Under the pieces are notes generated by a model. It did no database searches. It was not told the origin of the DNA and was given only the letters and a program-made list of their open reading frames with translations. A stretch of DNA of 64,000 bases, taken from the NCBI GenBank assembly GCA_938034415.1, contig CALHLE010000025.1, positions 1-64,000 of the forward strand. Direction: 5' to 3'. Within the stretch, counting starts at the first letter, position 1; every line of letters begins with the position of its first letter. Below are positions 39,718-60,202 of the stretch, one piece after another. Made by a program: the position numbers and the translations under genes. The DNA comes from an uncultured Anaerolineae bacterium. GTDB taxonomy: Bacteria > Chloroflexota > Anaerolineae > J036 > Brachytrichaceae.

Positions 39718-39898
39718 CTGCGCAGCCGGTCGTTTGAGTCCATGCGCTGCGCGTCAAGCGCAGCAGCCTCGCGCCATCGCCGTCGGCGTATGTCCGCGCG
39801 CAACGAGCGCTCTTCGGTCTTCGGTTGGCGCGACCCACGGCGCCGTTGGTCCGTCGGGTGCGCGCGCCATCGGCTGACCGTGCACGATGGTCAGCGTG
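39718..39898. other. Non-coding joint between gene relics
   Basis: No conserved coding signal was recognised. One minus-strand frame holds the weakly suggestive RTLTIVHGQPMARA, which might be decayed amidohydrolase sequence. Confidence 0.3.
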
Positions 39899-40420: not shown

Positions 40421-40592
40421 GGCGGCAGTGAAACACGGCGCAAGGCAGCAGTCGAGGAGAACAACAGTAGACGGCGCAGCGTGCGCCGGAGACACACGCT
40501 GCGCCGTCAGCATGTTGACAGAGTTGCCGGCACAAGGCGCTTAGCGAAGTTGCTGCGCCGAAATCCGGAGTCGCGTAGAATCCGCGCTGCGT

Positions 40593-40910
40593 ATGCGACC
40601 GACCGAGATTACCGCCGACAAGACGAAGGCCATCCTCACGATCACCTGGGACGACGGGGAGATATCCGAGCTGCCCTTCGCACTGCTGAGCGATCTGTGC
40701 CCCTGCGCCGCTTGTAACGAGGAACGCAACAACCCCGACCCGCTTAAGATCATCCGCCCTCGCTCGCACGAGTTGGAGGCGATCAACCCGGTTGGCAGCT
40801 ACGCCATCAACATCATGTGGAAGGGCGGTTGCCGGTTTGGCATTTACTCGTGGGAGTATTTGCGAGAGATGAGCGACCTGCTGCGACGAAGCGCATCGCA
40901 AGATGGGTGA
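40593..40910 (+). CDS. DUF971 (GBBH-like N-terminal domain) protein
   Basis: A 105-residue protein with the DUF971 pattern: an N-terminal beta segment LTITWDDGEISELPFALLSDLCPCAACNEE with CPCAAC as a potential metal site, then INPVGSYAINIMWKGGCRFGIYSWEYLREM. The fold equals the N-terminal domain of gamma-butyrobetaine hydroxylase. Stand-alone members are often linked with iron-sulfur or Mrp-type proteins. The function is unproven. It starts at ATG 40593. Confidence 0.85.
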   Translation: MRPTEITADKTKAILTITWDDGEISELPFALLSDLCPCAACNEERNNPDPLKIIRPRSHELEAINPVGSYAINIMWKGGCRFGIYSWEYLREMSDLLRRSASQDG

Positions 40911-40927
40911 ACCGTCAATGCACTATA

Positions 40928-41110
40928 TCAGCACCTCTTTTTAAGCGCTGCGCGATGCCAGTGATGACTGTTCGGCAAGTCTAGCTTTTCTCTCACCTCG
41001 AACTTTACTTTGAGCCAACTTGCTGCGTATTTATTTGCCAGCCGATGCCCGTTGGGCAGTTTCCGTTGTTCTTCTCCGATAATTTCAAGGAGAGACTGAA
41101 TCGCGTTCAT
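40928..41110 (-). CDS. Small hypothetical protein, 60 residues
   Basis: From ATG 41110 a short, basic, mostly helical protein with a His-rich end is encoded. AGAGG lies 6 nt upstream, so translation is plausible. Base composition is more AT-rich than in the flanks. I recognise no family. The frame extends upstream to 41191 but with less support. It could also be the remnant of a larger transferred gene. Confidence 0.4.
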   Translation of the reverse strand: MNAIQSLLEIIGEEQRKLPNGHRLANKYAASWLKVKFEVREKLDLPNSHHWHRAALKKRC

Positions 41111-41191
41111 TGCATACCTCTTCTTGAGAGAAGAACGCACTTCGGCCCCCTTGCAGCCTATGAAAACAGTTAGATTTCGCCGAGATTTCAC

Positions 41192-41722
41192 TCAAAGCAC
41201 AAGGCCAGCCGAGTCCATCACTGCCTCTATAAGTAGGCGATGCACATACGCTTGCCTGCGCTGGCTCCAGGTGGCGCAGGTGAGCAAGAAGAGGCGACGA
41301 CCATCGCGCCGATAAATGGCTTTGACCTCGCTCGGCTGCAACAGGCGGCGCCTTACCGTGCGATAGCGCCACATTTGACCACTGCGCGCCTGCAACACCA
41401 CGCGCGCGCCGACGGGCAACGCCGCCAAGCCGTAGAACGGGCCGCGCGCGCCGCCCTCCAGCGTGACGTGGGCGGCCAGCACCATCGCCCACGCGTCGCC
41501 CGGCCAGCGCCCAGTAGTCTGCAGCAGCCCCACTTCGCGCGCGCCAAGCCGGCTCTCGTCCCACGCCCCGTTGACAATCGGCAGCGGCACCACCGGCGCG
41601 TCAAAGCAACCCAGCGCAGGAATGCTCAGCCTGGCCGGCGCATTGGGCCGACTTGACTCGTGCGGATGCCACAAGGCAAGCGCTAGGCCGCCGAGAAACT
41701 GCCTTCGACTCAGACCGGTCAT
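41192..41722 (-). CDS. Sortase with twin-arginine-like leader
   Basis: A 176-residue sortase-fold transpeptidase. The catalytic triad is visible: His85 in VLAAHVT, Cys149 in FLLTCATW and Arg162 in YVHRLL. Sortases cleave LPxTG-type signals and link the protein to the cell surface or to other subunits. The N-terminus SRRQFLGGLALAL resembles a Tat motif (S-R-R-x-F-L), unusual for a sortase, which normally has a plain membrane anchor. Its ATG overlaps the stop of the preceding LPETG-containing gene by 4 nt (ATGA), implying translational coupling. It is the last gene of the surface operon. The class is uncertain (D/E/F-like). Confidence 0.88.
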   Translation of the reverse strand: MTGLSRRQFLGGLALALWHPHESSRPNAPARLSIPALGCFDAPVVPLPIVNGAWDESRLGAREVGLLQTTGRWPGDAWAMVLAAHVTLEGGARGPFYGLAALPVGARVVLQARSGQMWRYRTVRRRLLQPSEVKAIYRRDGRRLFLLTCATWSQRRQAYVHRLLIEAVMDSAGLVL

Positions 41723-42387
41723 CGGCGACCCGTTTCGGGCAGCAGGTTAGGCACGATCAGCGTTTGCGTGGTGTTCGATTGCGTGACCCCGCGGCTGCTG
41801 GTCAGCACGGCCGTGTTGAGCAGCGCGTTGGGCGGCTGCGCGCGTTCGTTGACCCGCGCCGTAATCGAGATGGTCACGCGCTCGTTCGGCGCCATGTCGC
41901 CGAGCTGCAAGCGCCACACACGCCCAGCAGGGTCGTAGCTGAATGCGCCGCGCGGCACGCTCGCGCTCAGGTAATCCACCAACGGCGAAAGCGCATCACC
42001 CACCTCGACATTGTTTATCACAACCGGGTTGGGGTTGATGATGTCTATGACGAACACTACGATGTCGCCGACCTGCGCTTGTTCCAGGTTCACCTGCTTG
42101 ATGACGTAAGGGTCGCTTAGCACGGGCAGCGGCGTGCTGGCCGGCGGCTCCGGCGGTGGCGGCACATCAGTCGGCGCAAGGGGCGTCGGCGTGCTGGTCG
42201 GCGTCGGCGTGTCAGTCGGCGTGGGCGTGAGAGTGGGCGTTGGTGTGTCAGTCGGCGTGGGCGTCTCCGTAAAGCCTGCCGGCGCTTGCGGTGCAGGCGC
42301 CACAGGCTGCGCGGCAAGCAGCACCGCCGCAGCAATGACAACCAGGACACCAAGCGACAAAGCGGAAGTGAGTTTCTTGATGTTCAT
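41719..42387 (-). CDS. Small DUF11-domain surface protein ending in LPETG-RR
   Basis: A 222-residue protein. It has an N-terminal hydrophobic leader (residues 6-26) and a Thr/Pro-repeat linker (TPTPTDTPTP type, residues 38-85). One DUF11-like beta module (about 92-210; VIKQVNLEQAQVGDIVVFVIDI, VEVGDALSPLVDYLSA) follows, then the C-terminal LPETG at 216-220 followed by only RR. The LPETG is a textbook sortase signal and the sortase gene comes next, but the usual hydrophobic tail is absent. It could be the sortase substrate or acceptor subunit. It lies 36 nt after the C25 peptidase gene. Confidence 0.85.
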   Translation of the reverse strand: MNIKKLTSALSLGVLVVIAAAVLLAAQPVAPAPQAPAGFTETPTPTDTPTPTLTPTPTDTPTPTSTPTPLAPTDVPPPPEPPASTPLPVLSDPYVIKQVNLEQAQVGDIVVFVIDIINPNPVVINNVEVGDALSPLVDYLSASVPRGAFSYDPAGRVWRLQLGDMAPNERVTISITARVNERAQPPNALLNTAVLTSSRGVTQSNTTQTLIVPNLLPETGRR

Positions 42388-42423
42388 GCCTTCCTGCTCC
42401 TCATGAAGAGCATCTAACGACGA

Positions 42424-45108
42424 CTAAGGGGCGACGCGTTTCATTACTGGTAGATAGTTCGTGTGGGTCGCCCAGCGTTGGTTGATCCGCAGCGTGGGAT
42501 CACCTAGCAGCGTATAGGTATCCAGCATATCTAGGTAGCTGCCGCCGGCGGCGAGGCTGAGCTTGCCGGCCAGCGCCGCGTCGCCGAGGCGCGCGCCGCC
42601 TAGCCAGCTTGCGGCAAAACCGTCGCCCAGCGCATCGTGTCCGGCGCTGAGCGTGAGGCCGGTCGCGCCCCAGGTCGCCACAGCGCCGCGCCCGTCAACG
42701 CGCACTAACGTCTCATCCAGCGTGTCTTGCAACTCATGGAAGCGCGATGTGTAGCACGTCAGGCCGACGACCACCGGCAGCGTGTCGCGCGGCGGCAAAG
42801 CTGGCGCATCATCACGATGCAGGAGGCGCTCAACCGCCCATTGACGCGGCGAGGCATGTCCGAAGTAAGCCAGCAGCCGCGCCTGCGGCCAGCGACCCAA
42901 CAGCACATGGCGCGTATCGGTGAGCGCGGCGCTGCTGACCATCGCAGCAGTCAGGCCAACGTATGGCGCCGGCACGGCCTGCGCGAGCGCGCTGGCTTTG
43001 GCGGGGAAGTTGCCCCCAGCGTCGGCATCGTCGGCGACGACCAATGCCAATCGGTCGGCAGCGGTGAGCAGGGCATCCTCGTAGGCCAGCGTCTTGCGCA
43101 CCAGGGCCTGCGTCTCGGTGAGCGTGTTCACCGGCCAGCGCCCGAGCGCGATGTCCGGCAGCGCATCGTCGCCATCCACCGCGACGAAGCGGTTATCTGC
43201 CGCTGTCTCGCCGAGGCGCGGCTCCACCTCGGCCAGAAATGGCGGGATGAGCGTCGGCGGCGAGGCGGCGCGGTAGCGCTTGGGGTCTAGCGTGCCATCG
43301 CCCACCAGGAGCGCGTAGGCCGGCGGCGTCGCCTCGCGGTAGTGAGCCGCGAAGTAGGCGCGGATGGCCAGCGGGTCGGCGCGACCATCACCGTAGTGGT
43401 CGTAGACAGCTTGAATCGTCTGCGTCACCACCGTCAGGCCCTGCGCCTGCCGCCGCGACGCTAGGGGAGCCAGGACGGGCAACAGCGCATCAGGGGCGAT
43501 GATGTGAAAATCGCCGCTCGCCGCATTGAGCGCCGCAGGCGCGCGCACGCGCAGCGGCGCCGCCGCATCGGTGAACGTCGCGTAGTCGCGCGGGAGCGGC
43601 GCTGCTGTGTCGGCGAAGGTGATGCCGCTGCCGTCAGAGTGCCAGCCGGTAAGCCGCGTGGGATGCGTAGGCGTGGTCACGTCCAGCACATATAGCGGGA
43701 GGAAGCGCAGCCGGTAGCGATGCGCGGCTGTCTCGCCCCGCCAAGGCGGAGCTAGGCCCGCTTGTCCCACCGTCGGCAACGTCACGGCGAAGGCATCGAG
43801 CCACATCCCTTCTACGCTGACGCCGCTCAGGCCGGGCAGCGTCACGCTGAGCGTGTTGTTGGGGCCGGCGTAGGCCAGAGCCGTCATCGTGATCGCCTGG
43901 CGGCCATCCCAGGCGACCTCGCCCGCCAGTGCGCCGTTCAGCCAAAGCTGGGCGCGATGGTCGGGGTTTTGTGGTGGGTCGGTGTAGCCGATCAGCCAAG
44001 CGGTGATCGTGACCGGCTGCGTGCCAGTCAGCGGCAGGGTGAAGGCGTAGCTCCAGGTCTGCCCGCGCTGAAGGTTCACCCAGGCCCAGCGGTCGCCGTC
44101 GCGGTGCGCTGGCGGGCGGCAGCCGCAATCGGGTGTGTAGAGGGCGTTCTGCTCAAAGCGCAGCGTTGCGTATAGCGCACCAGACGGCTGCCCGCCAGGC
44201 GCAACGTCGCGCGAGGCCATGCGCGCCACCGGCGCATCGGCCACTTCCAGCGCCCACGTGTCATGGTCGGCGTAGCGGCTGAAGCGCGGCGCTGCGTAGA
44301 ACAGCAAGCGCTCATCATCCTCGAAGGCGTCGTCGGCGTCGCCCTCCCAGAGCATGGGCACTTCGATTGCGCCCTGGCGCAGCCGCAGGCGGTGCGGCGA
44401 GCCGACGCCCACGCCGGCCTGCGCCAGCGCCGCGCGCGTGATCGCCACCAGCCCAGGTTGTGACACGTCCACCAAGGCGAGCGGTGTGACATAAGCCTGG
44501 CGCGCCGCCGGCGCGATCGAGGCGCGCCGGGGCGCCACTTCAGACGGGTTCACCACTTGCGCGCGGATGCTGCGCAACAGGCCTTCCTCCTTGCTACCCA
44601 AGGGGGCCAGCTCCCCTCGCGGAACCGGCCAACGCACCGTGGCGCTCAGGGCGCGCACCACCTCCCAGCCTTCTGGCAGCGGACGGGCGGGGAAGAACTG
44701 CACGCGCGCCAGCGAGACGCCGCGCACCACCCCCACCCGTTCCACGTGCACCGGCCAGCCCGTTGGCAACGCTTGCGAGATGGCGTTGCCGACAGTGGCA
44801 GGCAAGGTGAGCGTCGGGATGCGCTCGGTGCGCAGGTCGCGCACGCTGAGTTGCGGCAAGCCCGCTGCTTCCTCCGGCAGGGCGATGAGCCAGGCGGCGA
44901 AGGGCAATGCCTCTCCCTCGCCAAGCGGCCAACGCAGCGGCAGCGCCGGCAGCGCCTCCGGCGTCAGCTCGGCGCGCAGATGCAACGCCCCAGGCTCAAC
45001 CGTCGTCTGAAGTCCAGGCGCGATCGCAGCATGCGCCGGGACCCGACAAGCCATTGCCGCCAGCGCTACGGCCAGGATGCTTCTCAGGCGCGCCCCCATC
45101 GCCGACAC
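42424..45108 (-). CDS. Secreted C25 (gingipain-type) cysteine peptidase
   Basis: An 894-residue protein with a signal peptide (residues 1-28). A large N-terminal beta-rich region (30-510) includes a Cys pair in CGCRPP and jelly-roll-like segments. The peptidase C25 domain covers about 515-880. Domain signatures are FHIIAPDALLPVL, YALLVGDGT, the catalytic His751 in LAYFGHASPRQW, the catalytic Cys785 in VVVGLTCYTSRF, and the terminal DTYTLLGDPTLRIN. The usual GHG is GHAS here. C25 enzymes are caspase-clan endopeptidases; in Bacteroidota one member (PorU) trims and attaches surface cargo. A processing role for the adjacent giant protein is inference. It lies 22 nt after that gene. Confidence 0.9.
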   Translation of the reverse strand: MSAMGARLRSILAVALAAMACRVPAHAAIAPGLQTTVEPGALHLRAELTPEALPALPLRWPLGEGEALPFAAWLIALPEEAAGLPQLSVRDLRTERIPTLTLPATVGNAISQALPTGWPVHVERVGVVRGVSLARVQFFPARPLPEGWEVVRALSATVRWPVPRGELAPLGSKEEGLLRSIRAQVVNPSEVAPRRASIAPAARQAYVTPLALVDVSQPGLVAITRAALAQAGVGVGSPHRLRLRQGAIEVPMLWEGDADDAFEDDERLLFYAAPRFSRYADHDTWALEVADAPVARMASRDVAPGGQPSGALYATLRFEQNALYTPDCGCRPPAHRDGDRWAWVNLQRGQTWSYAFTLPLTGTQPVTITAWLIGYTDPPQNPDHRAQLWLNGALAGEVAWDGRQAITMTALAYAGPNNTLSVTLPGLSGVSVEGMWLDAFAVTLPTVGQAGLAPPWRGETAAHRYRLRFLPLYVLDVTTPTHPTRLTGWHSDGSGITFADTAAPLPRDYATFTDAAAPLRVRAPAALNAASGDFHIIAPDALLPVLAPLASRRQAQGLTVVTQTIQAVYDHYGDGRADPLAIRAYFAAHYREATPPAYALLVGDGTLDPKRYRAASPPTLIPPFLAEVEPRLGETAADNRFVAVDGDDALPDIALGRWPVNTLTETQALVRKTLAYEDALLTAADRLALVVADDADAGGNFPAKASALAQAVPAPYVGLTAAMVSSAALTDTRHVLLGRWPQARLLAYFGHASPRQWAVERLLHRDDAPALPPRDTLPVVVGLTCYTSRFHELQDTLDETLVRVDGRGAVATWGATGLTLSAGHDALGDGFAASWLGGARLGDAALAGKLSLAAGGSYLDMLDTYTLLGDPTLRINQRWATHTNYLPVMKRVAP

Positions 45109-45130
45109 TTCCTTGCGCCTTGCAGCTCGC

Positions 45131-48100
45131 TCACTCCATCCGCGGCGACGCTATCACGATCGGCAGCCACAGGCGCGGCGACAGGCCAACGGGCGCGTAC
45201 ACCGGCGCGGGATGCCGCGTCTCCTTTCCTGCCGTGTCCACGTCGGCCAACCAGTACCACCACACGCCGTCGGCGGGCGCAGTGTCCTCAAAGGTGTAGC
45301 TGGCGCCGCCGGTTCCGCCCATCGCTGCGGCTACCTGGCCGATGAACTCCGCCTGCGCAAAGTCGTTGCTCGGCGCGCGATAGAGCCTGAAGGCGAAGTT
45401 GTCCTGTTCAGTCTCGGTCTCCCAGGCGAGGGTCACCTGCCGGCCGTTGACCGCCGCCACGTAGAACACCCGCAGCGTCACAGCCGTGGGCACGTTGTTC
45501 ACCTCGGCGCTGTCGTCCGGCATCGTGGTGGGGTTGCCGTATTCGTCCTGCGTGCCCGCTTGCACCGAGGCGTAGTTCACCGTGGTGGTGATGTCGCTGA
45601 TCACGCGGAAGGTGACGGTGATGACGAAGCTCTGGCCGGGCAGGAGCGGCGCGCCGTAGCCATGCGGCGCCGAGCCGGTCAGGTCGCTCCAGGTGAGCGT
45701 CCCTGTCGCCGAGATTTGCGGCGCAGGCGTGGCCGATGCGTAGGCCAGCTTGGCGCCGTCGAACTGGTCGCGCAGCCGCAGCGGCGTGATGGCGCTGGGG
45801 CCGGTGTTGGTCACCCGAATGGTGAAGGTGACGTGATTCGGCGCGATGGGATCGGTGTCTTGGCCAACGAGCGTCTTCTTGATGGCCAGCGACGGCTGCA
45901 CCGACAGCACCGGCCGCTGGCTGGCGTTGTTGCTTGGGTTGTCGCCGGGCGTGTCGGTGGTCACCTGCGCCGTGTTGGTCAGCGGCTGGCCGTAGCCCAC
46001 CGTCGGCGAGATGCGCACCACCACGGTGATGACGATGCTCTGGCCTGCGCCAAGGTTGCCCAACGACCAAACCAGAGTATTGCCGCTCACGCTGCTCGGC
46101 GTCGGTACTGCCGTCGAATACACCAGGCCGACGTCCAGCGTGTCGGTGACGATTGCGTTTTGCGCCAAGCTTGGACCGTAGTTAGTCACCACCAGCGTGA
46201 ACGTGACGGCAGCGCCGGGCACGGTGATCGAGACCGCGCTGTGTTTGGTCAAAGCGATCTCGGCTTGGCTGTTCACCGGCGTCGTGACGTCGTCCGTGTT
46301 GTTGCTCGGATCGTCGCCCGGCGTCGTGGTGGTCACCACAGCCGTGTTAGTGATGAAGCTGCTGGTCGGCAGCGCCGCGCTCACTTGCGCCACTGCGGTC
46401 AGCACAATGGATTGCCCCGCAGGCAAGGCGCCCAGCGTCCAGGTCAGCAATTGACCGGCCGCTACGGCAGGCGGCGCCGTGCTGACCAGGGAGACGCCCA
46501 TCGGCAGCGTGTCGGTGACGACGACGTTCTGCGCATCGCTGGGACCGCTGTTCGTCACGAGCAGGGTGTAGGTGAGCAGGCCGCCGGCTGTGGCGACGCT
46601 CGGCGTAGCTGCCTTGGTCAGCGCGATCTCCGCGCGCGTCTCGACCGGCGTCTCCACTGTGTCGGTGTCGGTCAGCCCGCTGCCATCGCCGATGCCCACC
46701 ACGTTGGTCAGGATGGCCGGAGCAGTCACAGCGCTGTTGACCGAGACGACGACGGTGAGCACACCACTAGTCGGCGGGTTCAGCGTGCCGAGCGCCCAGG
46801 TGATCACGCCGCCGCTCACGCCGCAGCTTGGCGTGCAGCTCTGGAAGGTGACGCTAGGCGGCAAGGTATCGGTGATCAGGACAGCTGGCGCCGGCTGATT
46901 GCCGCTCACGGTGTATCGCAGCGTGTAGGTGAGCAGCGCACCAGCGGTGGCAATGGTCGGCGTGGCCTCCTTGCTCACCGACAGCGTATGGCTGCTGACC
47001 ACGCTCGTCGTCGCGGTGTCGGTCGAGGTGATGCCGCTGCTCTCCGCGATCAACGCCGTGTTCACGATCTGCGTGCCGCTGACCAGCGGGCTGGCCACCT
47101 GCACCACCATCGTGAGCACACCGCTCGCCTGCGTGATGCCGCCGGCCGGCGCCAGCACATCGCCGAGGCTCCAGATCACCGCGCCGGCGTTGCCTGCGCC
47201 GGGGTCGCTCGTCGCCGGTGGGATGGCAGCGAAGAACACCGTGTTCGCCGGCGTGGCGTCGCTCACCACCACACCCAGGGCGGGCGCGTCACCGCTGACC
47301 GTGTAGCGCAGCGTGAAAGTCAACAGCGCGCCGGCGCCCACTGGATCAGGCTGCGCCTGCTTGTCCAGTTGCAGCGTGAGCGAGGCAGTGACGGTATCGG
47401 TCACCGTGGCGGACGTTGGCGTCGGCGTCTCGGTGCTGGTCAGCGCAGCGGTGTTGGCGATGGCCAGGCCGTTGGTGAGCGGCGTCGCCACCGTCACGGC
47501 GAAGGTCAGCGTGACCGGCACGCCGGGCGGCAGGGCGTTGATCGTCCATGTGAGCAACGGCAAGGCCGCGTCGCTGCGCGCATCGCCGCCGGCAATCGAG
47601 CCAGGCACGTATGTGGTGAAGGCCGGCACGGTGTCGCTGACGACCACGTTGTTCGCCGTAGCGTTGCCGGTGTTGAGCACGACCAGGGTATACGTGAGCG
47701 TGTCGCCTGGTCGCAGGGGCGGGCCATTGCCGTCCTGACTGCTCTTGGTGAGATTGAGGATCGGCAGGCTGCCAACGACCGTCGTCACCGTGTCGGTATC
47801 GGTGATGCCTTCCGCGCTGGTGATGTAGCCGGTGTTGACGATCAACGAGCCGTTCGGCAGCGGGCTGGCGACCTGCACGAGCAACGTCACCACGCGAGAC
47901 TGGCCGACATCCACTATGCCAACCGTCCAGCTCACCACGCCGCCGGACTCGCCACACGGCGCAGGCGCGCAGCTCACGAAGCTGGTATTGGCCGGCAGCG
48001 CGTCGGTGATGACCACGCCGGTCGCCGAAACCACGCCCGCATTGGTGACCGCCAACGTGTAGGTCAGCAAACCACCCGCCTCGACGGCCGTGGGCGTGAA

Positions 48101-51100: not shown

Positions 51101-54100
51101 GTAGGTCACCGGGTCGCCTGCGCCGACGAAGCATCCCGCGCGGTTGAGCCGAGTGACGAGCGCATCATCGAAGCGACAGGCGTTTGCAGCGCAATTGTTG
51201 GCGAAGAACCCCACCGAGCCAGGCGGGCGCGGCGTGGTGTCAACGATGTCGAAGTAGAGCTGGCCATCCACATAGGCGCGGATGCGCGCGCCGTTGGGAA
51301 CGTTCTCCACTTGCGCTTCCAAGTGATACCAGCGGTTGGTCTGCGGCGTAAAGGCAGCAGTGCTCAGCGTGGCGAACCCGCCGGCGAACTCCTGAAGCTC
51401 TAGCTGTGTGCCGCCGTCGGATTGGCGCAGGCGCAGCAGATAGTAGTTGCCCGACGTGTAGCGGAACACCAGGCCACGGCTGGAGGTCGCGTCGGTGGCA
51501 AGCGACATCCCGCTGAAACTGAACTCGTCGGCGGTCAGGCCGCTGCGCACCAGCACGGCGTTGTTCACAGCGCCACCCGTCCACTGCGCGACGCCGTTCA
51601 GGTTGTTCCACGCGCCGGCCGCCGCCGTCCAACCTGAAGGCGGCGAGGACGAGGCGCGGTTAAAGTCATCGGCCATTAGCGTGCCGCCGCAGCCGTATGG
51701 CGTGAGGTAGGTTTTGCCCAGGTGCAACAGCGGCTCCAGCACGTCCACGCGCGCCGTGTCGCTGAGCACGGACGTCTGACCGTCATCCACGAACGATAAC
51801 GTGAGCGTGTTGGTGAGCGACGCGCCGTCGAAGGCCTGCGCGGCGTTCTGGATCACTGCCGTCACCACGCCTTGAATCTGCACCGAGCCGGTGAGCGTGC
51901 CTAAGCTCCATACGATTGGACCGCTAGCGTAAAGCGCCGGCGCGCTGGTGGGCGCGACGTCGAAGGTGGCTGTTGGCCCGCCCTGCCCGCCGTCCAAGTC
52001 CACCGTGTAGGCCAACCGAGCGCCGATGTAGCCCAGGCCCGCCGGCAACGTATCGGTGAGCCGCACCTGCTCGAAGAAGTTATCCGCGTCGCTGGTGAAG
52101 CCGGTGAAGGTAAACACCACTAGGCTGCCAATAGTGCCGGTCTGCGCGTCCGGCCCCTTGTCGAACACGTCGCCCAGCGAAACAAAGGCAGCGCCCGTGC
52201 TGCTAGACGTGGTGCATCCGGCCTCGCAGCGCGCCGTCGCCGTCACCACATTGCGGTTCACGCCGGTGCTGGTGACTACCGCGCTCACCAGCGCGGTGAA
52301 GACGGCGTTGGGAGCCAGCGCGCCAATCGTCCAGGTGAGGGTGTTGCCGGAGACGTTTGCGCCGTTGGTGCCGGTGAGGCTGACGAAGGCGCTGCCGGCC
52401 ACGTCGGTCAGCACCACGTCGTAGGCGACGCCAGGGCCGGTGTTGGTCAGGTAAACCGTCCAGGTCACGGTTTGGCCGGCTGCGGCCAGTTGAGTCGTGG
52501 GGCGCTTGGCCACAACCAGGTTCGGCGCTTGCGCGCTGATGTTGAGCGTCGTCGTCGCGCTGTAGGGGCCGCTAGCCGGGCAGTCCGGCGCGTCGTCATC
52601 GTAGCTCAACGTAGCGGTGAACGGCCCGCCGGCGACCGCACAAGCGCCGCTCGTGTTGGCGTTGCGCACTTGCAGCGTGATCGTGGTCGCGCCGCTGGGC
52701 AGCGCCGCCCAGGTGTAAACCACGCTGCTGCCCAGGTCAACCACGCCGGAGGGCGGCGCGCTGGCCGACAGGGTGCTGCTGAAGACGTAGCCGCTGGGCA
52801 GCGTATTGGTAAGCACAACGTTATAGGCCGGTGGTCCATCGTTATAGAGCGTCACCGTGATCGCGCCGCCGCACACGTTCAGCGCGGCAGGGGCGATCTC
52901 CGCCTGGATTCCCGGCTCGTCGTACACCGGCCGTGTGCGCACGCGCACCTGCTGCGCCGGCAAAGTCAACCGGCAGCCGTCCGGACAGCCCCAGCTCAGC
53001 GAGGCCACGTTGAACGTGTCGGTGATCGCGCAGCCGTCGGGCTGGCTCACCACGGCCGTCACGGTGAACACAGCCGTGTTGCCGGGGTTGAGCAGCGGCA
53101 GCGACCAGGTGATTGTGCCGCCCAGCGGCCCGGGCGCAGGGCCGCTATAGCCCGGCGTGGCCGATTGGAACACCAAGTTAGCAGACAGCGCGTCGGTAAT
53201 GACCAGCAGTTGAGCCGGCGCGGCGCTTGCCGCGTTGGCGACCGTGATGGTGAACACCACTACTTCGCCCGGCTCGGCATACAGATACACGTTCGAGGGC
53301 GAGGTGCGGCTCAGGTTTTGGCCGATCTTGGCCAGCGAGAGGTCAGCCCGCTTTACCCCAAGCACATACGACGAGCTGGCCGTGGTGTATGGCGCGCCGC
53401 ACACGTCGCGGTAGCCGGTCTGGATGCCCAGCGCGCCTCCCGCGAAGCCACAACTGGCGCGGACATCGTAGCGCAGGTACACCGTGTCTTTCGGGCGCAG
53501 GCGCGCCAGCCAGGCGCCCAGGGGTGCCGTGCTCGTCGGCCCCCAGCTCAAGTTCTGGCCGCCGATCGTCGGGTCGGGGCCGGGCTGCCAGCTCAGCGTG
53601 TCGGTGCTGATTTGCGTGCTGCCGGGGACGTAGAACAAGCCGACGGGCAGCGTCTGGGTGACCGTGGCCGAGTACACGCTGAGTAGGCCGGCGTTGCGCA
53701 CCGTCGCCGTCACCGTGCGCGTGAAACACGTTTCAATCGGCGAGAAGGTCTGGTTGGTATTCAACAGCACCGTCGGCGGCAGCTCCACCACTGAAGTCAC
53801 CGGCCCGCCGGAGAGGCAAACTTGGCCCAGGCAGCCCTGCGCGCCGAAGAGGCGGTTGGTGAGGTCGGTGCAGCTCACAATCTCGGCGACGTAGCGAATG
53901 GTCAGCGTCTCTTGCGGTTGAATCACCGGCACTTCCCACGTCACCAGGTTGGTGCTGGTGATCAGGTTGATGCCGGCGGGGCTGCCGAGCGATGAGGTAA
54001 TCGTGGAGGTCACGAAGCTCAAGCCGCTGCCCAGCAGGTCGGTGAGCACGACGCCGTGGGCCGGCCCGGCGCCGGTGTTCTTGGCGATCAGCGTCCACGT

Positions 54101-56785
54101 CACCACGTCGCCGGTGGCGTAGATCGTCTCCGGGAATTTGGTCAGCAACGGCAGCGGCGCGAGGCGCGGGGGCGTCGCCAGCGCGCCGCCAGTGTTGCAA
54201 CGCTCGAAGTAGGTGTCATTATTGGTGCATAGGCTCTCGTAGTGCAACGTGGCGGAGAACGGCGCCGGCGCGCTGCCGCAGCGCAACTGCACCCGCAGTT
54301 GCACCGTCGCGGTGACCGCGTTGGTGAACGCATCCGAGTAGAACCAGCGGTAACCGAGGCTATCGGTCTGCGTGAACGCGGGCGTCGCGCCGCTGAAGCC
54401 AAGCACATCCAGCACTGCGTAGGTGCTCGTCGGCACGACGATCGCCGCGTCGTAGCCCGGCAGGCTCGACGCGCGTTGCGCGGTGAGCGTCACCGTGTAA
54501 ACGCCGCACGAACTCACGTTAGGCGGCAGGCCGCTCAGGTTGAGCGTCATTCGCGGCGCTTCGGTTTGCATCAGCGCGCCCTCCGCGATCACGTCGCCGC
54601 CGGCGCACACGCCGTTGCCGCTCGTGCCCAGGTTCAGATAAGACCAGTCGTACCACTCGGCGTCGCTGCATGAGTTAGCCTCCAGCGATGCAGTGGTGTA
54701 GCTGATGATGAGCGTTGCGCCGGCGACGTTCGGGTTGCAGGGCGGGTTGATGTCGGTGATCACCAATTGGCCGCCGATCACCGCCGAGGAGAAGCTCGCT
54801 GCGCAGGCGGTGACCCCATCGCTCGCCCACACTTGCGCCGTGCCGGAGACGTATGCCTGGTTGACCAACGTCTCGGTGAAAATCAGGCCGCCCCAGGTGG
54901 GCGTGACGACGAAGCTGCCGGCGAAGGTGTAGATGTTGGTATGGGTGAAGGCCGGGCTGCTGCACACTGGCGCCGGTGATGAGACCAACTTCGCGCTCTG
55001 CGCGCCGGCGTCATTGCACTGGATATAAGTGGTTGATTGGGCCGTGGCCGTCTGCTGGCAGTTCCGGCAATCCCGCGCGGTCGCCGTGACGATGTTGGTG
55101 AACGCCGAGCCGCAGGCGGCGCAGCTCGCCGCGTTCGTCGGCACAACGAACACCGGCGTCAGCACAGCGCTGCCGCCCAGCGTCCAGCTAATGTAGGTTG
55201 CGCCGCCCAGGGTGAAGGTGACGCCGCCCCCGGCGTCCAGCACGATGGCGCCGGCCGGCACTTGGTCGGTGACGACGATCGCGCCAGAGATGCCGTTAGC
55301 GTTCACAGTGATTGTGGTGGTGATCGCCTGGCCGCGATACACGTCGGTCGGCGCGTCCTTGCTCACGCTCAACTGGCCGGGGATGTTGACCAACTGCCAC
55401 GCGGCAACCTGTGGCGCTTCGGCGTAGAGGAAGTTGCAAGCGTCGCGGTAGTTGATGTCGAAGTTAAAGCTCCCGCCTGCGGGCGTTGCGCAGGCGTTGC
55501 TCGGCAGGGTGAGCGTAAAGACCAGGTTGAACGTCTGACCGGGGGGAATGGGCGGCACCTGGAACGCGCCGCCCGCATACGTCGCCGGCGACGCGACGCC
55601 GACGCTGAAGGGGGACAGGTTCACCGGCAGGGTGACGCTATACGCTGTCCCGTCGCCGATGTTGGTGATGGGCACGGTGAACACCGAGCTGCCGCCGCAG
55701 TAGTTCACGTCGAAGCTCGGCAGGCTGTACTCAAGGTCGGGGAAGCGCGGCAGCAGATCAATCGCCGCTTTGGCCGTCTGGGGCGTCAGACAGGTCTGGC
55801 CGGGACAGCCCCACGCGGCGACGACGCTGTTCTCCAGCCCGCTGCACGCCACAACTTGCGCTGCGACGGTGAACGAGGCGGTCTGCCCGACCGGGATGGA
55901 AACGTAGCTCGTTGAGGTCAGCCCACTGACGAACTGCAACCCCGGCCCCAGCGTGTCGGTGACCGCCACGTTGTATACCGTGCCATAGCCGGTGTTCTCC
56001 ACATACACCGTCCACGTCACCACGTCGCCGATGGACGCCGGCGCAATGGACGGCTCTTTGCGCACTGTGATCGCGCCAGGGTTGATGACATACTCGGCCA
56101 GCTTCACGATGGGTGGGTAAGCGTCTTGCGTGAGCGTGACGACCGCCTGGCCGGACACGGCGCTGCATGTCGCCGTGAAGACCGCCGCGCGGGTGATCAC
56201 CTCGTTCGGCTGCACGCTGCCGACATTGAAGACCTGGGGGCTGCTGGTGAATCCGCCCGGCAGCGTCACCGTTAGCAACACGCCGGTCGTGGTGACGGCG
56301 TCGCTGGCCGCCACAACCGTCACCGTCAACGGCTCGCACAGGCTAATCGCCGGCGGGTCAATGGTGACCGTGATTTGATTGGGGTAGATAGTTTGATGCG
56401 ACTCGCCGCCACCTAAAGGCCCGAAGCGCGCCCCTGCATCATCGCTTGGCGACGATTTGCCCAGCGCAAACCACGTCGGGAGAACGCCCTGCTGCGCCGG
56501 AAGGTTGGACGCGCCATTGACCACAGTTGCGGGTTGACCTGACGCTTCCTCGGTTAGTTCAAGCCAGCCATCCGACGCAAACCAGCTCGGCAGTAGGTCT
56601 GTGGTCGGCGCTTCAGTTGCTGAAGGGTTATCAAACCAGGCGGGCAACGCCCGCGTCAGTGATGCGTCCGGCGCACGCACCGGTGTAGCGCCCTCGACCC
56701 GTGGCGGCGAAACCACGCCCAACGATGCGGTCAAGAGGGCGAACAGCGTCATCATGCGCGCTGCTATGCGAAGCTTCAACATCAT
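45131..56785 (-). CDS. Giant multi-DUF11 secreted surface protein (3884 residues)
   Basis: A signal peptide (residues 1-33) is followed by a short low-complexity region and then about 26 modules of 100-150 residues by my count. Each has the DUF11 pattern (VTYTLxVxNTGxxxAxxVVVTDxLPAG ... L.W.LG.L..G). N-terminal modules are richer in Cys, suggesting disulfides. A LamG/DUF1080-like concanavalin domain is inserted around residues 1690-1880. The C-terminal ~110 residues form a fibronectin-like domain (VTLAWETETEQDNFAFRLYR) ending LWLPIVIASPRME. There is no LPxTG at its own end. Two adjacent modules are duplicated, leaving a 53-nt perfect repeat. The protein is probably an extended cell-surface fibre, S-layer or sheath component. 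It has signal-peptide and operon links to the C25 peptidase and sortase. Confidence 0.92.
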   Translation of the reverse strand: MMLKLRIAARMMTLFALLTASLGVVSPPRVEGATPVRAPDASLTRALPAWFDNPSATEAPTTDLLPSWFASDGWLELTEEASGQPATVVNGASNLPAQQGVLPTWFALGKSSPSDDAGARFGPLGGGESHQTIYPNQITVTIDPPAISLCEPLTVTVVAASDAVTTTGVLLTVTLPGGFTSSPQVFNVGSVQPNEVITRAAVFTATCSAVSGQAVVTLTQDAYPPIVKLAEYVINPGAITVRKEPSIAPASIGDVVTWTVYVENTGYGTVYNVAVTDTLGPGLQFVSGLTSTSYVSIPVGQTASFTVAAQVVACSGLENSVVAAWGCPGQTCLTPQTAKAAIDLLPRFPDLEYSLPSFDVNYCGGSSVFTVPITNIGDGTAYSVTLPVNLSPFSVGVASPATYAGGAFQVPPIPPGQTFNLVFTLTLPSNACATPAGGSFNFDINYRDACNFLYAEAPQVAAWQLVNIPGQLSVSKDAPTDVYRGQAITTTITVNANGISGAIVVTDQVPAGAIVLDAGGGVTFTLGGATYISWTLGGSAVLTPVFVVPTNAASCAACGSAFTNIVTATARDCRNCQQTATAQSTTYIQCNDAGAQSAKLVSSPAPVCSSPAFTHTNIYTFAGSFVVTPTWGGLIFTETLVNQAYVSGTAQVWASDGVTACAASFSSAVIGGQLVITDINPPCNPNVAGATLIISYTTASLEANSCSDAEWYDWSYLNLGTSGNGVCAGGDVIAEGALMQTEAPRMTLNLSGLPPNVSSCGVYTVTLTAQRASSLPGYDAAIVVPTSTYAVLDVLGFSGATPAFTQTDSLGYRWFYSDAFTNAVTATVQLRVQLRCGSAPAPFSATLHYESLCTNNDTYFERCNTGGALATPPRLAPLPLLTKFPETIYATGDVVTWTLIAKNTGAGPAHGVVLTDLLGSGLSFVTSTITSSLGSPAGINLITSTNLVTWEVPVIQPQETLTIRYVAEIVSCTDLTNRLFGAQGCLGQVCLSGGPVTSVVELPPTVLLNTNQTFSPIETCFTRTVTATVRNAGLLSVYSATVTQTLPVGLFYVPGSTQISTDTLSWQPGPDPTIGGQNLSWGPTSTAPLGAWLARLRPKDTVYLRYDVRASCGFAGGALGIQTGYRDVCGAPYTTASSSYVLGVKRADLSLAKIGQNLSRTSPSNVYLYAEPGEVVVFTITVANAASAAPAQLLVITDALSANLVFQSATPGYSGPAPGPLGGTITWSLPLLNPGNTAVFTVTAVVSQPDGCAITDTFNVASLSWGCPDGCRLTLPAQQVRVRTRPVYDEPGIQAEIAPAALNVCGGAITVTLYNDGPPAYNVVLTNTLPSGYVFSSTLSASAPPSGVVDLGSSVVYTWAALPSGATTITLQVRNANTSGACAVAGGPFTATLSYDDDAPDCPASGPYSATTTLNISAQAPNLVVAKRPTTQLAAAGQTVTWTVYLTNTGPGVAYDVVLTDVAGSAFVSLTGTNGANVSGNTLTWTIGALAPNAVFTALVSAVVTSTGVNRNVVTATARCEAGCTTSSSTGAAFVSLGDVFDKGPDAQTGTIGSLVVFTFTGFTSDADNFFEQVRLTDTLPAGLGYIGARLAYTVDLDGGQGGPTATFDVAPTSAPALYASGPIVWSLGTLTGSVQIQGVVTAVIQNAAQAFDGASLTNTLTLSFVDDGQTSVLSDTARVDVLEPLLHLGKTYLTPYGCGGTLMADDFNRASSSPPSGWTAAAGAWNNLNGVAQWTGGAVNNAVLVRSGLTADEFSFSGMSLATDATSSRGLVFRYTSGNYYLLRLRQSDGGTQLELQEFAGGFATLSTAAFTPQTNRWYHLEAQVENVPNGARIRAYVDGQLYFDIVDTTPRPPGSVGFFANNCAANACRFDDALVTRLNRAGCFVGAGDPVTYTLTISNQSRWPGYDLLITDVVPGGLSLVTYTLSTNDPSAPAVLAGPSIGASGVLTWLVSHLTPTVPFTSLQHTALTLTVVLQVAPWITANTVLSNHAFLRYDAWLSDTQPISTIARGYSGGSHAAAVQTADGSIAKSVQFAPPPTATLGTLVTYTLIVPATPITATLYNVVVTDAVDSRMSIEAVAWSGGVNGAASWSGQQVTATFDAILSATQALITVTARISHEFPSPAADANAGDVLTNAARMSHSAAPITTSNVVSTVVGEPNVLVAKSVESSAGLTTGLDGLAYLTYTIRLTNTGSAPAYSVYVTDALPAGISVTAMFGGDSQSPPAAGPGFITWYVSSISNAAPANVAVLTYTARISQALLGRLLTNTVGVLYHSLTDTTPGVRPYTDTAAAVVQTGAPSMTKLREPFELRVGDLVTYQVVFTIPAGAAWGGSSGDVLLDALPPGVWYITDTETLAHTPSAVNVTITQRISNTTEQPGQQVIRWFFAPITSTQDAPTVVTLTFRAQAVGLRIDTPAPVWITQTSEFWPTNYAQLEYPWPNYISATATSRLIQPRLTIDKDSAPPPGAFVGAGDLITYILTITNDGYGPAYDVVISDVLPAGLALVTAALATSAPPTATFLAQPPVSATGTLTWLLSALWGTAWNGNQPGVAVITVVAQVTETIGANLTLTNSAAIPNYDSQPGDGPGPYAPDERDYTDGGDSVSHRTTDAALLKSVVPPTVTLGTLVTYTLIVPATPISATLNAVTVTDQLDARLQLHAVSAPGGSVVIVGNAFTVTYASIPANAQQLITVTAVVSSPLGANAGDVLTNVATLRHQDGGPVPSNQATLTVTEPSLTLVKSSEPPTSSTVGAGQTVTYTVRITNAAGAFVSAAYDLVFSDTLPLHMRDAVPVLASISLNSTPVSGSEYTSTYDALSGALIITLTTPVNVPPGGELVITYTATVDADAPAGLDQINAASVTWSSLPGATPGDRNYGPITDSTNVHLGFPALELRKVFTPTAVEAGGLLTYTLAVTNAGVVSATGVVITDALPANTSFVSCAPAPCGESGGVVSWTVGIVDVGQSRVVTLLVQVASPLPNGSLIVNTGYITSAEGITDTDTVTTVVGSLPILNLTKSSQDGNGPPLRPGDTLTYTLVVLNTGNATANNVVVSDTVPAFTTYVPGSIAGGDARSDAALPLLTWTINALPPGVPVTLTFAVTVATPLTNGLAIANTAALTSTETPTPTSATVTDTVTASLTLQLDKQAQPDPVGAGALLTFTLRYTVSGDAPALGVVVSDATPANTVFFAAIPPATSDPGAGNAGAVIWSLGDVLAPAGGITQASGVLTMVVQVASPLVSGTQIVNTALIAESSGITSTDTATTSVVSSHTLSVSKEATPTIATAGALLTYTLRYTVSGNQPAPAVLITDTLPPSVTFQSCTPSCGVSGGVITWALGTLNPPTSGVLTVVVSVNSAVTAPAILTNVVGIGDGSGLTDTDTVETPVETRAEIALTKAATPSVATAGGLLTYTLLVTNSGPSDAQNVVVTDTLPMGVSLVSTAPPAVAAGQLLTWTLGALPAGQSIVLTAVAQVSAALPTSSFITNTAVVTTTTPGDDPSNNTDDVTTPVNSQAEIALTKHSAVSITVPGAAVTFTLVVTNYGPSLAQNAIVTDTLDVGLVYSTAVPTPSSVSGNTLVWSLGNLGAGQSIVITVVVRISPTVGYGQPLTNTAQVTTDTPGDNPSNNASQRPVLSVQPSLAIKKTLVGQDTDPIAPNHVTFTIRVTNTGPSAITPLRLRDQFDGAKLAYASATPAPQISATGTLTWSDLTGSAPHGYGAPLLPGQSFVITVTFRVISDITTTVNYASVQAGTQDEYGNPTTMPDDSAEVNNVPTAVTLRVFYVAAVNGRQVTLAWETETEQDNFAFRLYRAPSNDFAQAEFIGQVAAAMGGTGGASYTFEDTAPADGVWWYWLADVDTAGKETRHPAPVYAPVGLSPRLWLPIVIASPRME
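48868..48920. repeat. 53-nt direct repeat, copy 1 (inside the giant gene)
   Basis: Identical to 50611-50663. It encodes the LGTLVTYTLIVPATPI segment of a DUF11 module. Exact identity at the DNA level in a high-GC gene points to a recent duplication or gene conversion. Confidence 0.9.
50611..50663. repeat. 53-nt direct repeat, copy 2 (inside the giant gene)
   Basis: Second copy of the repeat at 48868-48920, lying 1743 nt away (581 codons, in frame). Confidence 0.9.
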
Positions 56786-56864
56786 AGTTGCATTCTCCGA
56801 AGATGATGGTTCCGGCCACTCGCCGGCGCAATGAGCAGCAGCACGATCGCCGTCAAGCGACGCC

Positions 56865-58487
56865 TCAGGACATGCGGCTCAAAATATCTGATGGTGTGGG
56901 ATAGTCGTTCGCGTCTCTACCGATGTGAGACCAAATGATTCGCCCTCTCTTGTCTATGATAAACACCGCCGGCGCCGCCAGGTTGTCGCCCAGGCGGTTG
57001 AACACGCCAAACGCCTCGCTCACGGCATGCGACTCGTCGGCGAGGACCGGAAACTCAAGCCGGCCGAGTTCCCGCACCACACTTGCCTGTGTGACGCCCT
57101 GCACGGCGATGGCCAACACTTCAGCGCCGCGCGCACGGAAGCGATGATACTCCGCCTGCATCGCGCGGAGCTGTTGCTGACATGACCCGCAGCCGGCGCT
57201 GCGATAGAACAGCAGCACGACCGGCTGGCGCCCGAGATAGTCGCGCAGCGACACCAGGCGGCCATCCTCGCGCGGCAGGGTGAAATCGGGTGCCGGCCGT
57301 TCGGCAGGCAGCGGGTCGGCCAGGAGCGGCGCGACGTAGTCGGCGAGCTGATCGGCGTTGAGCACGCCGACGTGCCGCGCGCGCATGCCGCCGGCCGCGT
57401 CTATGAAGATTGTCGTCGGGATGCCAACTACGCCATACATGCGGCTGACGGCGCCGTCGGCGTCGCGCAGCAACGGATAGTCCATGCCGTTGGCCTCAGC
57501 AAAGGCGCGCGCCGTGGCCGCGTCTTCGCGCAAGTTCACCCCAACGACAACGACGCCGCGTTCGCGATAGCGCTGCGCGAAGCCGCCGAAATCGCGCGCC
57601 TCGGCGCGACAAGCCGGACACCACGATGCCCAGAAGTTCAACACAACCGCCTGGCCGCGCAATTGGCTCAGGCGGACGGGCTGGCCGTCCAGGTCGAGCA
57701 GGGTGAAATCCGGGGCCGGATTTTCGGGAGGCACCGCAGGAACCGGCGCGGAGGCGCGCCCATCCGCTGATGGCGGCGCAAGCGCCGGCGTTGGGCGAGC
57801 CGTTGCTTCAACTTGCGGAACGAGCACCAGCGGCCTGGCTGGCGGCATTGGCGGCGCAGCCGCCAAGACTGAGGGCGTGGGCGGAGCGCTAAAGCTGGCG
57901 TAAAGCCCGACTTTGGCGCGCCGGCGTCGTTCGGCCATCCACTGCTGGGCGTCGGCTTCCGACCCAAACCGCGCCAGATAAGCCTCGACGACGAGCAAGC
58001 GGCGGATCGCATCAAGGGCGTCGCTCTGCGACACCCCCTCCCGCGCCAGGGCGGCGTTAAGCGCCGCCTCATCCTTATTCCAGCGGCGCAACAATGCGCG
58101 CAGGCGCTCGGCGGCCTGATCCGGCGTGGCCGCGAGACCGGCCACCCGCGCTTCGCGCAGGGCAAGGCGCTCGTTGACCAGGCGCTGGAGCGATGCCTCG
58201 GGCGTCGGCGCGGATTGGCCGGCCAGCACGCTCATGACGCGGTCGAGCGCTAGCGCCCGCTGCCACTCCTCGCGGGTGACCACTTCGCCGTCCACTTCCG
58301 CCACGACGATTTGAGTTGTTGAGGTAGGCCCGGAGGAAGAAGGAAGCCAGCCGGCTCGCGGCGAAGTCGTCGGCGCTGCGCACCCGGCGAGCATGAGCGC
58401 AAGCCCCACACACCAGACATGGCGCGCGCGATCCAAGCGAAATCCTCTGCTGACCCACACTGCTACATCATTCAAGTCCAGCGGCAT
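56865..58487 (-). CDS. Lipoprotein fusing SurA-like, TlpA-like and peroxiredoxin-like domains
   Basis: A 540-residue protein. The lipobox LAGC (Cys36) anchors it outside the membrane. Residues 60-175 resemble the SurA N-terminal chaperone region (VAEVDGEVVTREEWQRAL, LVNERLALREARVAGL). A Pro-rich linker leads to a TlpA/ResA-type thioredoxin (about 255-395) with WCPAC and the cis-Pro in GIPTTIFID. A third domain (about 400-540) is AhpC/TSA-like (APDFTLPREDGRLVSLRDYLGRQPVVLLFYRSAGCGSC) with CGSC. The combination suggests a folding and disulfide-handling factor for the Cys-containing surface protein encoded next. It starts 16 nt after the sigma gene stop. Confidence 0.88.
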   Translation of the reverse strand: MPLDLNDVAVWVSRGFRLDRARHVWCVGLALMLAGCAAPTTSPRAGWLPSSSGPTSTTQIVVAEVDGEVVTREEWQRALALDRVMSVLAGQSAPTPEASLQRLVNERLALREARVAGLAATPDQAAERLRALLRRWNKDEAALNAALAREGVSQSDALDAIRRLLVVEAYLARFGSEADAQQWMAERRRRAKVGLYASFSAPPTPSVLAAAPPMPPARPLVLVPQVEATARPTPALAPPSADGRASAPVPAVPPENPAPDFTLLDLDGQPVRLSQLRGQAVVLNFWASWCPACRAEARDFGGFAQRYRERGVVVVGVNLREDAATARAFAEANGMDYPLLRDADGAVSRMYGVVGIPTTIFIDAAGGMRARHVGVLNADQLADYVAPLLADPLPAERPAPDFTLPREDGRLVSLRDYLGRQPVVLLFYRSAGCGSCQQQLRAMQAEYHRFRARGAEVLAIAVQGVTQASVVRELGRLEFPVLADESHAVSEAFGVFNRLGDNLAAPAVFIIDKRGRIIWSHIGRDANDYPTPSDILSRMS

Positions 58488-58503
58488 CCCCGCAGCGCGC
58501 GGT

Positions 58504-59283
58504 TTATCCGCGAAAGAGATGCTCCAACTCCTGACGCAACAGACCCGCCCGCACGTCGTTAGTCAGCTTGCGATCCAACCGTCGAACGATGTTGCGCCGG
58601 ATTTGCCTAACCTCGCCCTCGTCCACGAAAAGATCGGGATGACGCGCATAGATTTGAGGAGGCTCCAGCCCTTCTTCCCACATCTCCTTGGCCACAATGC
58701 GTTCGCGCTCGCCTTCGATGATCTGACCGAGTAATTCCCACAAGTCGCTCAAGATCGCCGCGTTCTCGACAGTTGCTTCGACAGAGGTGCTATCCGGCGT
58801 TTCCCGATCAAGCTCGTCAAGTCCCATCATGTCGTCATGTTCGCCATCTACTGCCGAATCATTCGCCTCTGCCCAGTGCCACAACGCATCCTTTCGGCTT
58901 CGCCGCAGCTCATCTTCAATGGCAGACCATGTGCAACGTTTCAAATACTGCATGTAATCAGCGACGGTTTTGAAACGCCCTGCGCTGGCGTGACGCTCGC
59001 CGTATTGCCACAGGCGTGAAAAGGCCTGATTAGCGAAGTAGTCTGCGTCCTCGCCGGTGACGCGAAAGTGAGGATGGATGTGCACCCATCGTAGCACCTG
59101 CGGGTAATGTATCTTGTAAAGGGCATCCCAGGCTTCCTGGTTGCGCTCGACGAGGGCCAGCCTGAGAAGCTCCAGACAGGGCTGTTCATCGCGCGAGCGA
59201 TCGTCCCTGCGAAAGTCGCTGGCTTGCGCGCTACACAGCTCGGCGAGCTGCTGAATCGCGCTCGATTCGTGCGTGGTGTTCAC
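58504..59283 (-). CDS. ECF-like RNA polymerase sigma-70 family factor
   Basis: A 259-residue protein. Region 2 lies around residues 36-100 (LLRLALVERNQEAWDALYKIHYP, then ADYFANQAFSRLWQY). An acidic spacer (residues 140-170) separates it from a region 4-like helix-turn-helix (about 185-245; GERERIVAKEMWEEGLEPPQIYARHP, then EVRQIRRNIVRRLDRKL). It is larger than the usual ECF of about 190 residues because of the spacer and N-terminal extension. No anti-sigma gene is adjacent. It leads a six-gene operon, so it likely controls itself and the surface genes. The start is ATG 59283. Confidence 0.85.
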   Translation of the reverse strand: MNTTHESSAIQQLAELCSAQASDFRRDDRSRDEQPCLELLRLALVERNQEAWDALYKIHYPQVLRWVHIHPHFRVTGEDADYFANQAFSRLWQYGERHASAGRFKTVADYMQYLKRCTWSAIEDELRRSRKDALWHWAEANDSAVDGEHDDMMGLDELDRETPDSTSVEATVENAAILSDLWELLGQIIEGERERIVAKEMWEEGLEPPQIYARHPDLFVDEGEVRQIRRNIVRRLDRKLTNDVRAGLLRQELEHLFRG

Positions 59284-59372
59284 AGCCCTGACCTTCCTGA
59301 ACCTCTCGCCGGAGCGCCCATGGTCGGCGTATTTGCTGCGCTCTGTGCGCGAGCGCTCGGCAACCTAACTAA

Positions 59373-59395
59373 CGGCCATTATCACGGCCATATCA
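59373..59395. repeat. Tandem 11-12 bp repeat at the sigma operon start site
   Basis: CGGCCATTATCA (59373-59384) is followed directly by CGGCCATATCA (59385-59395). The repeat overlaps the -10 box and extends to the expected transcription start on the minus strand, a natural place for an operator. The binding protein is unknown. Confidence 0.5.
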
Positions 59396-59420
59396 TAGTC
59401 CCCCGCATGTCATCGCGCAA
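59392..59420 (-). promoter_or_regulatory. Probable promoter of the sigma/surface operon
   Basis: On the minus strand, TTGCGC (59420-59415) is followed after 17 nt by TATGAT (59397-59392). It lies about 105 nt upstream of the sigma factor ATG. The match to the housekeeping consensus is good at -10 and moderate at -35. Confidence 0.5.
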
Positions 59421-59792
59421 ACGTGCAATCTGGGCAAATGTGCGCGTGTGAACGGGGACACATACCTCGGCCGAAGACCGCCTCCTCAAACACTACGTGA
59501 ACTCTAAGCGTCTCCTAGCGCCTATCGTCACGCCTACTGAACCGCGGATGGCCATCAAACGTAGTGCCTAGGGGTGAAGGCAGCGCCCTCACTTACACAG
59601 TCCTCGTACATCGTTTTGTCAAGAGAGTTGAAACCCAACTGTGATGAGATGTGAAGTCCATTCGGTGAGTTTAGTCAATTGACACCAATAGTAATCCAAA
59701 TGCAAAGCAGCAGTGAACCGGCTCGATAGACTCGCTGTTCTTATCACTGAAACATTTTAGGAAGATTTAGACTCATGGTTGATTTGTCGAGC

Positions 59793-59820
59793 TTGCGAAC
59801 TTTCAACATTGTTGTATAGT
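59793..59820 (+). promoter_or_regulatory. Probable promoter of the STAND operon
   Basis: TTGCGA (59793-59798), a 16-nt spacer and TATAGT (59815-59820), followed by a short leader and AGAGGA 8 nt before the ATG at 59843. The boxes resemble those of the divergent sigma operon promoter. Confidence 0.55.
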
Positions 59821-59842
59821 ACAGTGCCAGAGGATTATTCAC

Positions 59843-60196: not shown

Positions 60197-60202
60197 CAAC
60201 AT

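Follow-up and report, generated by a model that had tools for sequence, protein, structure and literature searches.

How might a bacterium fix to its surface a giant protein with no recognisable anchor of its own, when the LPxTG motif encoded nearby lies on a separate small protein that lacks a hydrophobic tail? Sorting signals are defined by LPxTG together with such a tail. The question is raised by a locus of six minus-strand open reading frames spanning 41192-59283 of a 64,000-nucleotide stretch of DNA (here called the window) from an uncultured bacterium of the Chloroflexota class Anaerolineae. From upstream to downstream, the genes encode a divergent sigma factor, a redox lipoprotein, a giant DUF11 protein, a C25 peptidase, a small LPxTG protein and a sortase, with intergenic gaps of 16, 79, 22, 36 and -4 nt. 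Checking of the open reading frames bore out the six same-strand genes, sizes and gaps described in the initial annotation, and its family names agree with Pfam and NCBIfam for SurA_N with two AhpC-TSA/redoxin domains, DUF11, Peptidase_C25 and Sortase. The third codon position is the most divergent in all six genes, indicating protein-coding constraint. Since both this constraint and the gene order are kept in relatives, the locus is not due to chance.

Among named relatives, those nearest to the sortase belong to Candidatus Roseilinea and Thermoflexales genomes (Chloroflexota), and hot-spring Chloroflexota form the setting of the conserved gene neighbourhood. The order giant, C25 peptidase, small protein, sortase on one strand recurs in seven relatives within the Ca. 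Roseilinea family, to which the window belongs (G002, G003, G005, where the giant is partial, G006, G008, G015 and G020), and contig fragments of this four-gene core are present in G001, G010 and G022. In a further genome, G004, two contigs share the core between them, one with the end of the giant and then the small gene, the other with the C25 gene and then the sortase gene. The single open reading frame that appears to unite small protein and sortase in G008 was rejected as a true fusion: a frameshift removes the LPxTG and other genes there are shifted too, as expected of an assembly error. Across 27 family genomes, C25 peptidase and sortase occur together in 11 and are both missing from 15; C25 is never found alone and the sortase only once (Fisher 9e-7, uncorrected for ancestry), in G010, whose contig starts inside the small gene. 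Likewise, the genomes that encode the N-terminal region of the giant are exactly those with the lipoprotein, 13 of the 27 (13/13 versus 0/14, counts that ignore shared ancestry). No strong match to any of these genes was found in G007, which belongs to the same genus as the window. In G017 and G024, drafts whose contigs end inside the giant, giant and lipoprotein are present and no C25 peptidase or close sortase was found.

This pattern bears on whether the genes share a mechanism at all. Happenstance alone could have brought together, in this lineage, a DUF11 adhesin, a C25 peptidase that matures itself and a sortase of general function, as the abundance of C25 genes across the class and the inconstant adjacency of sigma factor and lipoprotein would allow. 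Against it stand the four-gene order across genera and the shared presence and absence, together with two features taken up below, namely an invariant LPxTGRR and ATGA and the association of giant, C25 and LPxTG in other families. We regard such a chance assembly as distinctly unlikely.

Co-occurrence of all six families in order, which the initial annotation had proposed as a check, holds for the four-gene core, but the sigma factor is not core and the lipoprotein is not always adjacent. The sigma-70/ECF-like gene (58504..59283, minus strand; GTG start, 259 aa) matches TIGR02937, in keeping with the name ECF-like, but does so at 31.8 bits, below the cut-off of 42.9, and searches returned neither a Pfam family nor a significant solved structural relative. 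Nor is it supported as the integral lead gene of the system, as had been claimed: its close orthologues do not extend beyond the genus, and in relatives the gene is set apart or absent. We rejected it as a core gene on these grounds. It lies approximately 4 kb from the lipoprotein gene in G003 and G006 and is absent at the G015 and G020 loci. In G003, the intervening genes encode a zf-HC2 protein, a second ECF sigma factor, a DUF5667 protein and another zf-HC2 protein. Given the 4 kb separation in G003 and G006, a secondary contraction probably brought the two genes together in the window. The single recognisable promoter reported ahead of the set was not recovered either: a consensus scan of 40400-60300 yielded no sigma-70-like promoter on the minus strand; the only such site lay on the plus strand, whereas chance alone would give 2.0. 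A single operon of all six genes is thus unproven.

Several features in the surroundings were recorded in passing. An amidohydrolase-like gene adjoining the locus (39632-40513, minus strand) looks broken, its match to the G005 protein being limited to residues 12-194 and 375-420 and split over two frames; it is whole in G001. Upstream lies a gene for a divergent NB-ARC/TPR protein (60203-62977, plus strand), and similar genes are found upstream in G002 and G008. An ordinary ZMP/ZTP riboswitch is located at 3771-3857 (minus strand, 54.4 bits).

The giant (45131..56785, minus strand) is a DUF11/CLIPPER fibre protein of 3884 aa with 15 DUF11 stretches (E 7e-175) and full-length orthologues of 3862-3912 aa that are about 70% identical. 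Forty of its 44 cysteines fall within residues 150-1885 (51131..56338), and all 44 are conserved in the six orthologues compared at full length. This conservation fits a dedicated thiol-redox lipoprotein, and the 540-aa product of the preceding gene (56865..58487, minus strand) combines, by domain search, a lipobox (LAGC) with SurA-N, TlpA-like (WCPAC) and PrxQ-like (CGSC) domains. Its gene is directly upstream of the giant's in most, though not all, genomes. Taken together, the four-gene order across genera, the co-occurrence of lipoprotein and giant and the conserved cysteines support a dedicated surface-assembly locus. The self-contained surface system first envisaged is retained in that form only, as no export machinery is encoded within the six-gene set and the sigma factor is not integral to it. 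As a separate observation, another thiol redox-sortase link in the class is provided by G098 (contig C54, L050), where genes for a canonical LPVTG-TM protein, a DsbA-like protein and a sortase stand in a row.

Two short motifs mark the ends of the giant. Three LPxWF motifs lie in its N-terminal linker (56468..56647); orthologues have two to four copies, confined to this linker among the 170,620 aa scanned, and the motifs persist though the linker evolves fast (46% identity). In G035, from another family, the giant's N-terminus (L102) has LPGWF, VPGWF and LPVWF at the corresponding place. At the other end, the C-terminus RLWLPIVIASPRME (45134..45175) represents an R[LVA]WLP ending seen in all orthologues. 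Ends of WLP/YLP type are found on the giant (45134-45175, minus strand), the C25 peptidase (42427-42459, minus strand) and another large DUF11 protein in G015, and possibly constitute a Chloroflexota C-terminal signal.

Where the giant has no recognisable anchor, the small protein may offer one of unusual form. Its gene (41719..42387, minus strand) encodes 222 aa comprising, by domain search and alignment, an N-terminal hydrophobic segment, the stretch GFTETPT, a Pro/Thr linker, one DUF11 domain and, at the extreme C-terminus, LPETGRR (41722..41742). The LPxTG pentapeptide is present near the C-terminus of all 11 orthologues, each ending LP[EGR]TGRR-stop. No hydrophobic segment and basic tail follow it; RR alone does, whereas small proteins of other families carry a full signal. 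The initial annotation had recognised the LPETG ending and overlooked its most unusual feature, the missing tail. The stop codon of the small gene overlaps the sortase start within an ATGA (41719..41722), as it does at 10 of 10 loci where both genes are visible, which suggests that the two are translationally coupled. Lacking a hydrophobic tail, overlapping the sortase gene and bearing two invariant arginines after LPxTG, the small protein might be thought to keep its C-terminus uncut and use it as a docking tail, an inhibitor or tether by which the sortase next to it is held or regulated. This we consider very unlikely: in other families, small proteins of similar build carry the complete sorting signal, and LPxTG varies at the x position alone, as in substrates.

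Conserved stretches occur elsewhere in the small protein as well. GFTETPT (42256..42276) lies just past the hydrophobic segment; its GFTETP is invariant near the N-terminus of the family orthologues. A plain signal-peptidase site was rejected as an explanation, since the preceding residue is A, V, I or L and so not consistently an allowed one. Within the DUF11 domain, the Lys of VIKQVN, the Asp of GDALSP and the Asn of LLNTA are invariant and constitute candidate Lys-Asp-Asn isopeptide positions.

The sortase (41192..41722, minus strand; 176 aa) matches PF04203 at 47.6 bits against a cut-off of 26.6, and its catalytic residues H85, C149 and R162 are invariant in 12 orthologues. An AF2 model (pLDDT 84) led Foldseek to class C/A sortases at a TM of about 0.64. 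None of the NCBIfam sortase classes was passed, class F reaching 29.9 of 166 bits and class GN 21.9 of 158 bits. The N-terminus is twin-arginine-like (SRRQFLGG); such a Tat-like start (SRRxFLG; 41640-41722, minus strand, in the window) is found on several sortases of the genus and is not evident in G004, G010 and G022.

Class C, the pilus type, was ranked first by Foldseek, and this raises the prospect of the small protein being a pilin-like structural subunit. The sortase would then build a fibre or coat by linking small proteins to one another or to the giant; the nucleophile would be either an amine on the giant or the small protein's N-terminal region, where GFTETP is invariant. We hold this to be unlikely. 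In five orthologues (G000, G002, G015, G020 and G022) the sole ectodomain lysine sits at the expected isopeptide position, and the aligned orthologues, inspected by eye, show no DP[FW] lid of the class C kind ahead of the catalytic His. Compared with a class C pilus cassette, moreover, the substrate is without a CWSS, and the small proteins of other families have ordinary wall-sorting tails.

The C25 peptidase (42424..45108, minus strand; 894 aa, PF01364 205 bits) has a conserved catalytic His and Cys motif (GHAS...TC) and ends in NYLPVMKR. It is PorU-like, with PorU (6za2, E 1.3e-7) as its nearest solved structure, and scores 140.8 bits against the PorU equivalog NF033707, below the cut-off of 420. 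On the strength of this structural kinship, trimming of the giant is plausible, at a putative cut site. In P. gingivalis, a sortase-like transpeptidase activity has been proposed for a PorU-type enzyme (PMC4560394), and by virtue of this proposal a joining role for the C25 peptidase of the window is possible.

Related arrangements outside the family vary the same parts. In G028 the order is giant, C25, small protein, the last ending in VPKTG, a TM segment and a basic tail; in G035 a small protein with LPETG-TM precedes giant and C25; and in G034 a small protein with LPVTG-TM adjoins the giant on one contig while giant and C25 adjoin on another. The small proteins of all three have GFT and a Thr/Pro-rich stretch after the hydrophobic segment, as in the window. 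The giant of G038 itself ends in LPETG-TM, with no adjacent C25 gene and no strong C25 match genome-wide, and a distant giant in G044 has neither a C25 nor a small gene beside it. These arrangements suggest that an LPxTG protein serves as the giant's anchor in trans, and that a C25 peptidase accompanies giants without an anchor of their own, the latter pattern resting on few cases and fitting G044 poorly.

Tail-less motifs beside sortases are not peculiar to the window. Across 298 Anaerolineae genomes searched, sortases were found at the ends of long open reading frames. At 16 of the 17 loci L072-L088, these consist of [LI]PxTGF, a linker of approximately 50 residues and a sortase domain, with no TM segment between; L081, a short frame without the motif, is the exception. 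Including two beyond this series, 18 such open reading frames of approximately 550 to 3,840 aa were inspected, from genomes that include G053, G086, G113 and G265. In an alignment of 15 fusions, the motif's P, T, G and F never vary, and neither do the catalytic His and Cys. An AF2 model of one natural fusion has a pLDDT of about 72-97 from the motif onward and below 50 just before it. A different fusion, L098, reads LPVTG-TM-TM-sortase in a single open reading frame, and the DUF11 domain of the window's small protein is closest to that ahead of its LPxTG (E 1.8e-7). The sortase tree places the window's group and the tail-less fusions in two clades of their own, both nested within a larger clade (29 sequences, support 95/92) to which L098 and a stand-alone sortase also belong; descent of the window's split pair from the tail-less fusions was considered and set aside as no more than a possibility. 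The open-access literature searched yielded neither a description of natural substrate-sortase fusions nor a paper on Chloroflexota sortases, and we otherwise met the motif-linker-sortase layout only in engineered enzymes.

We infer from these comparisons, with a probability of about one half, that a dedicated sortase uses its tail-less LPxTG partner as the anchor of the giant, with the C25 peptidase maturing or joining the giant. The giant would exit by Sec, and the SurA/TlpA/peroxiredoxin lipoprotein would aid the folding of its cysteine-rich half. The small DUF11 protein would rely on its N-terminal hydrophobic segment for insertion or retention and would show LPxTG at its extreme C-terminus. 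There, the coupled sortase would cut T|G, freeing GRR alone, and attach the small protein to an amine at the surface, most likely in the cell wall, as expected for tailed counterparts elsewhere. The PorU-like C25 peptidase would mature the giant, and might also link giant and anchor. Every enzymatic step, the acceptor, the link between giant and small protein and the role of C25 are inferences that go beyond the sequence comparisons, co-occurrence and predicted folds.

This preferred reading draws on the core order in seven relatives, the LP[EGR]TGRR endings, the ATGA overlap, the co-occurrence of the genes, the invariant sortase residues and fold and the conserved cysteines. It is further favoured by the outgroup giants, which have tailed small LPxTG proteins or, in G038, their own LPETG-TM; by G004, where the giant's end still lies beside the small gene though C25 and sortase lie elsewhere; by the recurrence of tail-less motifs beside sortases in the class; and by an engineered chain of target, LPGTG, linker and sortase that works as one polypeptide (PMC9985607). 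Counting against it are G017 and G024, in which giant and lipoprotein but no C25 or close sortase were found, and G044. The sortase could also act on other proteins, and the N-terminal hydrophobic segment could instead be a signal peptide that is cleaved off, in which case the substrate would be soluble. It is tempting to extend the scheme to a relay of two transpeptidases, in which C25 would cut the giant at its C-terminal [YFW]LP and join it to GFTxTPT of the small protein while the sortase would link the tail-less LPxTG end to the surface. The locus would then be one case of a wider Chloroflexota pattern of sortases encoded in cis with the substrate they act on, through gene overlap or fusion; we consider this elaboration quite improbable.

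The small protein is, on the preferred reading, an evolutionarily stable candidate substrate without a tail, paired with its sortase through overlapping genes. If true, this would broaden the definition of a sortase substrate, provide natural counterparts to engineered self-processing sortase fusions, and provide an entry point to the way in which giant proteins are attached to the surface in Chloroflexota, a phylum with poorly understood envelopes.

Parts of the locus resemble several known systems. With LPXTG/sortase wall anchoring (classes A, C, D, E and F) it shares the His-Cys-Arg sortase fold and an adjacently encoded LPxTG substrate, but here the substrate has no hydrophobic domain, the two genes overlap by 4 nt, the host belongs to the Chloroflexota and the sortase passes no NCBIfam class cut-off. 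The autocyclases (PMC9985607) have the layout of the natural [LI]PxTGF-linker-sortase giants; they are engineered, however, and in the window motif and sortase are on two overlapping genes. Type IX secretion PorU (PMC4560394) has in common the C25 domain, in the window placed beside a presumed large surface client; the window's enzyme differs in scoring below the PorU equivalog cut-off. Among the grappling-hook proteins, a class defined by polar hooked filaments and represented by GhpA of Aureispira and GhlA of Litorilinea aerophila, the latter (6,596 aa, 49 DUF11 domains and a predicted N-terminal TM segment) is a giant many-DUF11 surface protein of the Chloroflexota, as the window's giant is proposed to be; unlike in the window, neither C25 nor sortase is mentioned for GhlA (PMC13319060). 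CLIPPER (DUF11) fibrillar adhesins (PMC12617251) share the tandem DUF11 stalk, and their Lys-Asp-Asn positions are apparently present in the small protein; in the window, however, LPxTG is on that separate protein rather than on the stalk. Set against these systems, the locus appears to be a variant of sortase display that is new in its tail-less small substrate.
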